This document shows positions 46,420 to 49,781 of a stretch of 64,000 nucleotides of DNA, in pieces; within the stretch, counting starts at the first letter, position 1; each line of letters starts with the position of its first letter. A program made the position numbers and the translations under genes. Under the pieces are notes generated by a model that was not told where the DNA came from, did no database searches, and worked only from the letters and a program-made list of their open reading frames with translations. Source of the stretch: Niameybacter massiliensis (GTDB taxonomy: Bacteria > Bacillota > Clostridia > Lachnospirales > Cellulosilyticaceae); assembly GCF_001282685.1 (NCBI RefSeq), contig NZ_LN875035.1, positions 2,918,411 to 2,982,410 of the forward strand, in the 5' to 3' direction.

Positions 46420-47763
46420 GTGGATCATTCAATGAAAAAAACGGTATGGCAAAACTACGTAAGCTATTTATTACCTACTGTTATCGGTATGGTAACCTAT
46501 AGCTTATACTGCTTGGCTGATGTTCTATTTGTGTCGTTAGGGGAAGGTAGTAATGGACTTGCAGCTTTAAACATTTCCCTTCCTATCTTCACCATTTATT
46601 CTGCATTAGCTATTTTAATTGGGGTAGGTGCTTCTATTACAATTGGAGTTTTAAAAGGAGAAGGAAATCTAGATGGAGCCCATAAAACGTTGACTATGGC
46701 TATTTCCACAGTTACATTACTCGGTACTTTGTTCACTCTACTAAGTATCCTTTTTACTAAAGAATTAGCGCTACTATTAGGAGCAGATACGACTATATTA
46801 AAAGACGTTATTGGCTACTTAATCCCCGTATGCTATGGTGTCTTATTCTATATGCTTGCAGGTAGTCTAACTGTGCTTGTTCGCTCAGATGGTAATCCAA
46901 AACTTGTTATGGTTGCAGGTATGACCGGTAATCTGATTAATATTATTTTAGACTATATTTTCATTATACCTCTTGGTTGGGGAACATTTGGTGCAGGCCT
47001 AGCAACCGCTATTGGATTTACCATTAGCATGTGTATACTTTGGTTACACTTTATTATGAAAAAAAATACAGTTCATTTTACAAAATCGTATTTTGATATA
47101 AATTTATTTATTCGTATGATTAAAAATGGTTTAGGTGCTAGTTTATTAGAAATATCTACGGGTGTTACAATCTTTCTCATTAATCTAGCCCTTATGAAAG
47201 TAAGTGGTGCAACCGCTGTAGCCATATTTAGTGTCATTTCTAATATCGCCTTCATCGCCAAAGGCCTATTTGGTGGTATGGCACAAGCTAGCCAGCCTAT
47301 TATTAGCCTTAACTTTGGTCTTAAGAATTTCGGGGTGATGAAACTTGCCAATAACTACGCAATGTGGGTAGCTGGTAGCGCAGGTCTTATTTCCTTTATC
47401 CTATTAGACCTATTCTCTAGACCTATTATCAGTGCTTTAGTCTCTACTGACCCTCAAGTAATTGAACAAGGTGCACTGGCTATACGCCTTTACTTCTTCG
47501 CCTTTGCCTTTACTGGATTTAATACAGTACTTATGTATTACTTCCAGTCCATAGAATGTTCTTTCTACTCTACAATCATGGCATTTTTACGAGGTATTGG
47601 ACTTATCTTCATCCTTCTCCTCATACTTCCACGTTTCTTAGGAGAAGCAGGCATCTGGCTCGTACTACCAGTTACAGAACTTATCATCTTTGCAGTATTC
47701 TTCAGTGTTAAACAGCTCTACAGCAACAAACACTTAAATCATACTCTAGGTGTTTCTGCCTAA
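46420..47763 (+). CDS. MATE family efflux transporter
   Basis: The 447-residue protein has about twelve membrane segments and MATE motifs (YSLYCLADVLFVSLGEGSNG, AALNISLPIF, GMTGNLINIILDYIFI). It is closer to the MepA/DinF-like group than the MATE at 20797. The GTG at 46420 is chosen because AAGGAG lies eight bases upstream; the ATG four codons later is too far. It is monocistronic with a strong terminator. Confidence 0.93.
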   Translation: MDHSMKKTVWQNYVSYLLPTVIGMVTYSLYCLADVLFVSLGEGSNGLAALNISLPIFTIYSALAILIGVGASITIGVLKGEGNLDGAHKTLTMAISTVTLLGTLFTLLSILFTKELALLLGADTTILKDVIGYLIPVCYGVLFYMLAGSLTVLVRSDGNPKLVMVAGMTGNLINIILDYIFIIPLGWGTFGAGLATAIGFTISMCILWLHFIMKKNTVHFTKSYFDINLFIRMIKNGLGASLLEISTGVTIFLINLALMKVSGATAVAIFSVISNIAFIAKGLFGGMAQASQPIISLNFGLKNFGVMKLANNYAMWVAGSAGLISFILLDLFSRPIISALVSTDPQVIEQGALAIRLYFFAFAFTGFNTVLMYYFQSIECSFYSTIMAFLRGIGLIFILLLILPRFLGEAGIWLVLPVTELIIFAVFFSVKQLYSNKHLNHTLGVSA

Positions 47764-47797
47764 GCACATATCACACCTAATAATAGAGACAACATAA

Positions 47798-47833
47798 ACA
47801 AGGCAACGACTTGATCAAAAGTCGTTGCCTTGT
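47798..47833 (+). terminator. Terminator of the second MATE gene
   Basis: A 15-bp stem ACAAGGCAACGACTT/AAGTCGTTGCCTTGT is followed by TTTTAT. Confidence 0.93.
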
Positions 47834-47842
47834 TTTATAGGA

Positions 47843-48000
47843 TGAAAACTTTTAGTATATGATGTAGTCCGATCGGCACTGCCCTTTTCTACTCTATGAA
47901 GTAAGTTTTCACTTTCAGTGACACCCTTAAAGAAAAAAGTTGGGTAAGCATCTCTTCTTTGAAGGTAAAAATTTCATGCACCCTATCTATCTTTCTACCG
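47843..48000. other. Cluster of nested hairpins, left module
   Basis: Helices visible directly: TGAAAACTT (47843) with AAGTTTTCA (47903-47911), enclosing GTAG/CTAC and CCGATCGG; TCACT/AGTGA (47909-47921); GGGT and GCAT (47942-47951) with ATGC and ACCC (47976-47983); CTTTCTA (47991) with TAGAAAG (48009-48015). There is no reading frame. It may be part of one structured RNA or element with the palindrome that follows. Strand is not determined. Confidence 0.55.
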
Positions 48001-48287
48001 GCAGAATCTAGAAAGTAAGGGCATGCATATACAGTAGACTTGAGAAAGCGAGATGGTTAGGTGTGTTCTCTGGAACCTGCCTACGTAGCTTTCAGAGAAG
48101 AAATGTGCGAAATGAAAAAATAACGGTTTTAGGTGTGCTGTCTGAACGAAGTGAGTTCACACCGTTATTATTTTTGAATGAGCTACATTTCTCTGAAAGC
48201 GAAGTGTAGCAGGTGAAGGAGAATCCACCTAGCCAACACGCTTAAGTACACTAAATATAATCATGCCCTTACTTAACCCTATTCTGC
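48001..48287. repeat. 287-bp imperfect palindrome, possible structured RNA or MITE-like element
   Basis: Two arms of about 110 bases pair almost along their length: GCAGAAT with ATTCTGC, AAGTAAGGGCATG (48013-48025) with CATGCCCTTACTT (48262-48274), ACTTGAG with CTTAAGT, GGTTAGGTG with CACCTAGCC, ACCTGC with GCAGGT, GCTTTCAGAGAA with TTCTCTGAAAGC. The tip has AATAACGG/CCGTTATT (48119-48169) and TGAAC/GTTCA. The right end enters the last codons of galT. I do not recognise it as 6S, SRP, RNase P or tmRNA. Confidence 0.75.
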
Positions 48288-49781
48288 TAAACTTCCAAAG
48301 GTTTCAATAAAGCGTTTGAATCCAGCTATACCTTCTTCATTTAATTTATAAACACCAGCATCTTCAAGTACTCTTACGAATTTATCTCCAAGTGCTTGCT
48401 TAATATACTGTTCTATATCCATTGCTTCATTATAAGTAGCTTTTAATCCATCTGCCCAAAGCATATGATTTTCTGCTACGTCAGCTACTTCTCCACGTAC
48501 ATACTTCTTCACTTCTTCTAATTCAGTTAGAAGTCTACCTGGTAAAATAGCGAGTCCCATTACTTCAATCAGTCCAATATTTTCTTTCTTAATATGTTGT
48601 ACATCTTGATGTGGATGGAATATTCCTAGCGGATGTTCATCTGTTGTACGATTATTACGAAGTACTAATCGCATCACATACTTACTGCCTTCACGCTTAC
48701 AAATTGGTGTAATCGTATTATGTGGTGTATCTTCTGTATAGGCTAAAATATCACATATTGGATCACTATATGCTCTCCAAAGCTTTAAGATTTCATCGCT
48801 ACATTTCGCTAATTCTTCTGTTGACTCACCTACTAGCTCAATCGTTGAAAGAGGCCAGTTTACAACTTTCCCTTGAATACTTTTGTATTTAGGTAAAGTG
48901 AACTCAAAGAGTGTTGTTGCTTCATCCATAGGGAATGTATGACGTCCACCTTGGTAATGTTCATGTGAAAGAATAGATCCTCCAACAATAGGTAAATCTG
49001 CATTAGAACCTATGAAATAGTGTGGAAACTGTGTTGTAAAGTCTAATAAATTATTGAAAGTGCTTGCTGTAATTTGCATTGGTGTATGCGTATCAGATAA
49101 TATAATACAATGCTCATTGTAATATAAGTATGGTGAATACTGCATAAGCCATTTTTTATTATTTAATTCTAAACGAATCATACGATGATTTGCTCGATCT
49201 GGGTGTTTGATTGTACCTTCATATCCTTCATTTTCTTGACATAAAAGACATGTTGGGTAATTACTACTTGGAGCTAATCTTTCTAGTGCAATTTGCTTAG
49301 GATCTTTTTCTGGTTTTGATAAGTTAATTGTAATTTGAATTTCTCCATATGGAGAATCCACATTAAATTGTTTGTTCTTCGCTAACTGTCTCACCTTGAT
49401 ATAAGTAGAAAGTTGGCTAAGTTCATAGAAATAATCTGTTGCAGCTTTTACATCATTTTTATAAAGTTCAAAGAACTTTCTATTAACGCCTGATGGTTTA
49501 TCTAAAAATAGATCCATAAGGTGGCTAACGAATTGATCCTTAGCCGCCATATGTTCTTCAATAAGTTCTTTTTCAAGTGCAATCTCTAAAAGTGCATCTA
49601 AAGTTTCATATTGATTGGTTTCTACTTTTTCTGAAACCTCATAATAGTCTTCTTTAAAAAGTGCTAACACTCTATTTCTAATGTAGATTGCATCCATTTC
49701 TTCAATAAGATGATTCTCTATATTAAGTTCTATAAGTCTATCGATAAACCCACATAACTTCTTAGTTAAATTCTTTTCCAT
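48279..49781 (-). CDS. galT: UDP-glucose-hexose-1-phosphate uridylyltransferase, Gram-positive type
   Basis: The 500-residue enzyme transfers UMP between UDP-glucose and galactose-1-phosphate in the Leloir pathway. Length and sequence fit the class-2 GalT of Firmicutes. The active-site motif is SHEHYQGG with His273 and His275; CLLCQENEGYEG near residue 190 may bind metal. AGGAGG lies ten bases before the ATG. It follows galK by 20 bases. Its 3' end forms the right end of the large palindrome, which may act as terminator. Confidence 0.95.
   Translation of the reverse strand: MEKNLTKKLCGFIDRLIELNIENHLIEEMDAIYIRNRVLALFKEDYYEVSEKVETNQYETLDALLEIALEKELIEEHMAAKDQFVSHLMDLFLDKPSGVNRKFFELYKNDVKAATDYFYELSQLSTYIKVRQLAKNKQFNVDSPYGEIQITINLSKPEKDPKQIALERLAPSSNYPTCLLCQENEGYEGTIKHPDRANHRMIRLELNNKKWLMQYSPYLYYNEHCIILSDTHTPMQITASTFNNLLDFTTQFPHYFIGSNADLPIVGGSILSHEHYQGGRHTFPMDEATTLFEFTLPKYKSIQGKVVNWPLSTIELVGESTEELAKCSDEILKLWRAYSDPICDILAYTEDTPHNTITPICKREGSKYVMRLVLRNNRTTDEHPLGIFHPHQDVQHIKKENIGLIEVMGLAILPGRLLTELEEVKKYVRGEVADVAENHMLWADGLKATYNEAMDIEQYIKQALGDKFVRVLEDAGVYKLNEEGIAGFKRFIETFGSLAE

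Follow-up and report, generated by a model that had tools for sequence, protein, structure and literature searches.

The window analysed here, a stretch of 64,000 nucleotides from the genome of Niameybacter massiliensis (contig NZ_LN875035.1; assembly G000 below), contains a long hairpin element between two convergent genes, which encode a MatE-family transporter and a galactose-1-phosphate uridylyltransferase-like (galT-like) protein. The features of the locus are listed below, with positions counted from the first letter of the window.

46420..47763, plus strand: MatE-family transporter gene, convergent with the galT-like gene across the element
47796..47835, listed on the minus strand: terminator-like stem-loop between the MatE gene and the element
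47833..47880, minus strand: outer end of the T2 terminal hairpin, inverted, forming the left end of the mosaic with its terminal repeat eroded (L009 744-791 compared with L019, L024 and L028)
47877..47961, minus strand: B segment, in the opposite orientation to that of nearly all other copies; together with the T2 end it makes up a truncated left hairpin with its tip deleted
47989..48276, plus strand: H module, a long imperfect hairpin common to nine other places in the genome
48013..48025, plus strand: left side of a 13-bp perfect block, partner 48262-48274, adjoining the ancestral terminal repeat AAGTGAGGG
48088..48099, plus strand: left side of a 12-bp perfect block, GCTTTCAGAGAA, partner 48189-48200
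48096..48195, plus strand: tip region of about 100 nt, modelled as R1, with the same architecture across the order
48125..48131, plus strand: conserved internal loop B, with GGTTTTA on the 5' side and GTT on the 3' side at 48164-48166
48138..48157, plus strand: conserved loop C, consisting of CTGTCTGA, the mini-stem ACGAAGT and GAGTT
48139..48157, plus strand: 19-base core TGTYTGARCGNAGYGAGTT within loop C
48279..49781, minus strand: galT-like gene, the 3' end of which reaches the right foot of the hairpin

The stem at 47796-47835 is a near-palindrome followed by TTTTATA on the plus strand. The stop codon of the galT-like gene (48279-48281) lies inside the right foot of the hairpin, and the outermost GCAGAAT/ATTCTGC pairing is partly within the 3' end of this gene. 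Promoters inside the element were no more frequent than in shuffled sequences.

The 287-base imperfect palindrome reported at 48001-48287 in a preliminary description of this DNA is real and forms one long hairpin with a fold z of about -11 on both strands (plus strand, -119.9 kcal/mol, z -10.7; minus strand, -110.7 kcal/mol, z -11.0; none of 200 shuffles was as stable on either strand; folded as DNA, z -10.2), and the perfect 13- and 12-bp blocks are present as described; the repeat module common to the other copies is 47989-48276 and thus differs from the interval first noted. The differences between the arms, which had looked compensatory, prove to be so: in the window copy, two pairs have changed on both sides relative to the nine other copies and still pair (0.31 expected), namely G-C to A-T at alignment columns 33/286 and T-A to C-G at columns 65/256, and the left side of the 13-bp block (48013-48025) bears a compensated G-C to A-T change. 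G-U pairs were found, as had been said, but without any excess (4 G-T versus 4 A-C mismatches in the window copy, counted in a neutral alignment of the two arms). The words shared by the arms (CCTGC and GCTTTCAGAGAA), once taken as a hint that one arm had been copied from the other, are the two strands of the palindrome and not direct copies, and remaking of the palindrome by arm-to-arm copying is unlikely because most internal mismatches are common to all copies.

The genome-wide search for other copies, done by BLAST within the N. massiliensis genome, gave 10 copies of the H module including that of the window (the nine others 84-89% identical), and about 30 dispersed loci of composite elements when the neighbouring modules were counted. 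A typical composite element is about 620-960 bp long; its centre is non-coding, a long imperfect hairpin points outward on each side, and short inverted terminal repeats bound it. Hairpin D stands at one end, followed by segments C and B; at the other end stands either H or T2, the latter pairing back with B to form a hairpin. The inverted terminal repeats AAATAAATATTT are present at both ends in about 18 copies (18 exact or near matches; none for the reversed control) and are eroded in the window copy, and TA stands on both flanks in 4-5 of the 18 (L012, L021, L026 and L028; in L017 it is shifted by one base). Two pairs of copies are nearly identical (L012/L013, 98.2% over 958 bp; L014/L015, 98.9% over 760 bp) and sit at sites with different flanks, and the spread is therefore partly recent. 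The copies are intergenic, lie close to the 3' ends of genes and keep away from divergent promoters; of the loci where both neighbours were seen, 11 have a convergent pair of genes around them, 12 a tandem pair and none a divergent pair. At L010, L011, L013, L016, L021 and L026, the genes next to the element extend 4-10 bases into it and take their stop codon from the terminal repeat TAAAATAAATA.

None of the copies has coding capacity, no transposase was found inside any of them, and no pair of terminal repeats in the own genome brackets a gene or transposase. No IS630-type parent was found in the genome, from which DDE_3 is absent. The same terminal pattern gave 6 matches in the genome collection and 3 in viral sequences, which is about chance level; a first pattern scan of the genome collection, to which the own and near genomes possibly did not belong, had given no matches. 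The parent transposon may be lost or lie outside the assembly.

Compared with these relatives, the window copy is an old mosaic in which the left hairpin is truncated and the right one intact, the right part being a complete H hairpin (47989-48276), and it keeps the plan of two outward hairpins in reduced form. The suggestion of a decayed element holds for the window copy, which has lost its ends and part of its left half, and fails for the family as a whole.

Modules D (on the minus strand), T2 and H of the own genome differ in their arms and have the same tip, in which GGTTTTAG, a short stem, TGTYTGA, a mini-hairpin, GAGTT, the other side of the stem and CGTT follow one another, and which always points outward in the composite elements. 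The tip was first revealed by three genomes of the same family, as matches of 30-60 bases within hairpins whose arms are unrelated. Its architecture comprises a CTTAG/GA loop, a GGTTTTAG/CGTT loop and a TGTYTGA/GAGTT loop with the mini-hairpin; loops A, B and C have strand polarity and are set in helices of any sequence. The covariance analysis of homologues that had been proposed as a check (26 aligned tip hairpins) showed strong covariation of the helices, with 186 doubly changed paired cells versus 62.6 +/- 6.6 in shuffled alignments and a covariation score of 0.645 versus 0.207 +/- 0.017, slid structures scoring at most 0.16. As the arm sequences change, substitutions on both sides of a pair preserve their complementarity; among the more diverged copies, change is 3-5 times lower at paired positions than at unpaired ones. 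The outer helix is flanked by a further conserved segment, CTTAGTGAAY/RTGAACTTAG, which can be read as a putative helix with a U-U mismatch and tandem G-A pairs.

No Rfam covariance model scored above its gathering threshold for the hairpin or the tip, and cmscan with gathering and E-value thresholds returned nothing beyond tRNA, a T-box lying outside the element and chance matches to microRNA hairpins, so that a known RNA family was rejected. No paper naming the tip motif was found in the literature searched. The string GTTTTAG-N5-CTGTTTGAA resembles, by eye, a type II-A CRISPR repeat, which we take to be a coincidence.

Within the order, the covariance model of the tip had matches in five families (20 of 295 genomes), with E-values down to 4e-18 and often many matches per genome, the arms being unrelated between families. 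A few single matches at E 0.002-0.005 are possibly due to chance alone, yet they fold as long hairpins with the core; all folded tip loci are long hairpins, and in some families loop B is flipped to the other strand. The 19-base core was found in 15 of 398 genomes of the phylum (reversed pattern, 0). Outward hairpin pairs recur in another family (G323 and G562), about 300-440 bp apart. Among viral contigs, several hairpins have loops B and C, one of them between capsid/terminase-type genes of a P2-like prophage, and many other viral matches have the core without long arms. At L210, L213, L218, L220 and many other viral loci, the core stands in a recurring context, TAAACAT...GGTTTGTTTGAGCGAAGCGAGTTAAATAAATTATC, and long pairing arms are lacking. 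Some copies in G008 and G021 (L157/L100, L124) appear to lie within further palindromic flanks, e.g., TGTCCGAAAACTA..., which are possibly nested repeats or palindromic targets. A further hairpin in the N. massiliensis genome, outside the module families (L204, G000:C10:331752), has unrelated arms and the same loops B and C.

The sibling element in G245 (L169-L173) is a 296-bp near-perfect palindrome with a fold of about -230 kcal/mol (surrounding 380 bases), and four of the five copies examined are flanked by duplications of 8-9 bp (e.g., TTATACTAA, ATAAATGA, TTTTATAA and ATAATTAA). Many paired ends about 280 bases apart were found in this genome, with no longer, autonomous-looking partner among them; there are also many further copies, as well as derivatives whose ends are separated by about 60 or 160-180 bp. 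The terminal repeats of G245 are unrelated to those of the window family, and the tip is therefore common to mobile palindromes with different ends; since terminal repeats and target duplications differ among the families that share it, the tip is not simply a transposase end. A cargo element between outward hairpins was considered for L127 and L128 and rejected, because the intervening DNA holds ordinary genes or decayed fragments and no consistent cargo. In L128 (G016:C16:35000-38600), a decayed IS200-like TnpA fragment lies among broken reading frames between outward hairpins about 1.7 kb apart.

Taken together, the palindrome is probably the right-hand terminal hairpin of a composite, non-autonomous, probably mobile interspersed repeat, the hairpin of which would be read, and the copies spread, in trans. 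Three readings had been offered at the outset (structured noncoding RNA, processed hairpin, decayed non-autonomous element), and the last is best supported, by the approximately 30 loci, the terminal repeats, TA at some of them, copies 98-99% identical and the absence of a transposase. By the rule set beforehand, that many dispersed copies with target duplications would speak for a mobile element, the outcome favours such an element over an RNA gene. Against this reading, no mobilising enzyme was found, TA stands on both flanks in only 4-5 of 18 copies, and the families with the tip in common differ in their terminal repeats and target duplications.

We consider it unlikely, though worth weighing first among the alternatives, that the hairpins are a structured non-coding RNA family, transcribed in tip orientation, with internal loops that bind a protein or act at the RNA level and with the copies as passengers. 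Covariation together with conserved loops across families, the tandem G-A motifs among these loops, the 3-5 times lower change at paired positions in the more diverged copies and the intergenic placement near gene 3' ends would all suit it. In RNA families, wobble pairs usually far outnumber A-C mismatches, and isolated arm mismatches in G000 and G002 numbered 77 G-T versus 28 A-C; within G000, G-U and A-C mismatches in tip orientation likewise lean to G-U (H 12:4, BT 31:22, D 23:14), an excess that rests on few independent events. In all groups except these two, however, there were 55 G-T (G-U) versus 53 A-C, and G-U is rare among paired positions overall, unlike in typical RNA families. A strand polarity of RNA drawn from this ratio shows in G000 but not outside G000/G002. 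Against an RNA family stand also the lack of Rfam matches above chance and the sibling palindromes, which are near-perfect and carry target duplications. The structured-RNA reading has covarying helices and conserved loops on its side, but wobble pairs are not preferred to A-C mismatches outside two genomes. Either a folded RNA or a single strand of DNA that folds would account for the conserved loops, the covariation and the strand polarity; because G-U is not commoner than A-C outside the two genomes, a folded DNA hairpin seems at least as likely as RNA, and we lean, without certainty, to folding at the DNA level.

REPs, palindromes of 20-40 bp that bear an unpaired tag (GTAG or CGTC), often occur in inverted pairs near gene 3' ends, and two inverted REPs are said always to flank a RAYT gene (PMC3733652, PMC2817692, PMC3116915). 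The elements described here resemble REPs, BIMEs and REPINs in being intergenic palindromes of many copies, often in inverted pairs near gene 3' ends and in mosaic arrangements, but their hairpins are 180-300 bp long, no RAYT gene is flanked by them, the conserved part is the tip, and some families have terminal repeats and target duplications. That they are giant REPs or BIMEs mobilised by a RAYT-type Y1 transposase reading folded single-stranded DNA is improbable. Inverted hairpin pairs as in BIMEs, the REP-like placement, AGTAG/CTACG feet in G188 copies and single-copy long Y1_Tnp genes in G000, G002, G008, G015, G016, G056, G170 and G188 speak for it; against it, no tip match lies within about 2-3 kb of any Y1 gene (12 Y1_Tnp-matching loci), Y1 is absent from the hairpin-bearing G012 and G176 and present in short forms only in G245, and G019 and G022 have the long form and no tip matches. 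The Y1 gene of G188, moreover, lies near different palindromes of its own, a repeated 32-bp unit (L345 4094-4125, 4294-4325 and 4483-4514), probably its own REP-like partner. The RAYT partnership is thus not supported, as no tip lies near Y1 genes and the presence of Y1 does not track the hairpins; nor did the hairpins prove to be 20-40 bp palindromes with an unpaired GTAG/CGTC tag, AGTAG/CTACG foot pairs being confined to G188. In G002, G008, G015, G016, G019 and G022 (L336, L338-L342), spanning several genera, a single-copy long Y1_Tnp (RAYT-like) gene stands in conserved order beside GerAB/GerAC-like germination genes and, in several, by eye, a D-Ala-D-Ala-ligase-like gene; this Y1_Tnp gene looks domesticated.

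With MITEs the elements share shortness, terminal inverted repeats, dispersal in multiple copies, and the lack of coding capacity and autonomy; TA (window family) or 8-9 bp duplications (G245) flank some of the copies. They differ in that the parent transposon was not found (searches with terminal-repeat pairs gave no autonomous partner with common ends in the own genome or G245) and in that unrelated MITE-like families have the same strand-specific tip, a feature not known from ordinary MITEs. The repeat would work like a giant REP/BIME or a MITE; by the tests made it is not a REP, and it is a MITE only in part. ERIC sequences are long imperfect intergenic palindromes and BOX sequences modular A-B-C repeats, both of which can be transcribed and each of which is one sequence family; the present elements resemble the former as palindromes and the latter as modular repeats, but from genome to genome their arms are entirely different and the internal-loop architecture is retained. 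They are also like the bacterial stem-loop repeat families, intergenic sequences with a common predicted hairpin (PMC2267715), among which none with this tip architecture was found in the literature searched.

Least of all do we believe that selection on the neighbouring genes has kept the hairpin as a bidirectional terminator or 3'-end stabiliser: it has convergent genes on both sides, the galT-like gene runs into it with no other terminator found between them at the locus, and the family avoids divergent regions, but it is far longer than needed and has no T-tract after it, the MatE gene has its own terminator-like stem (47796-47835), and the dispersed near-identical copies and the conserved tip would be left unexplained.

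In the preferred reading of a mobile, non-autonomous composite repeat, the copies would be spread in trans by an enzyme that no copy encodes, inserting with duplication of a TA target in the window family and of 8-9 bp in the G245 sibling. Either this enzyme or a host protein of wide conservation would read the folded hairpin in a strand-specific manner, with single-stranded DNA or a cruciform a likelier form of it than RNA; once inserted, the hairpin would probably end or stabilise the transcripts of flanking genes. More tentatively, the tip is possibly a previously undescribed folded motif (single-stranded DNA or RNA) whose reader would be a protein conserved across phyla; mutually unrelated palindromic mobile repeats, in Bacillota and in prophages of Pseudomonadota, would then have captured it.

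What is novel is that unrelated hairpins have a conserved tip in common. Palindromic repeats of bacteria are mostly known in the form of short REPs or of families of a single genome; here, giant hairpins with unrelated arms keep a fixed internal-loop architecture over several families, and the core recurs in prophages of another phylum. The sharing of the tip across families and prophages therefore points to a common reader of the folded strand, and a defined motif makes the recognition and spread of bacterial hairpin repeats testable.
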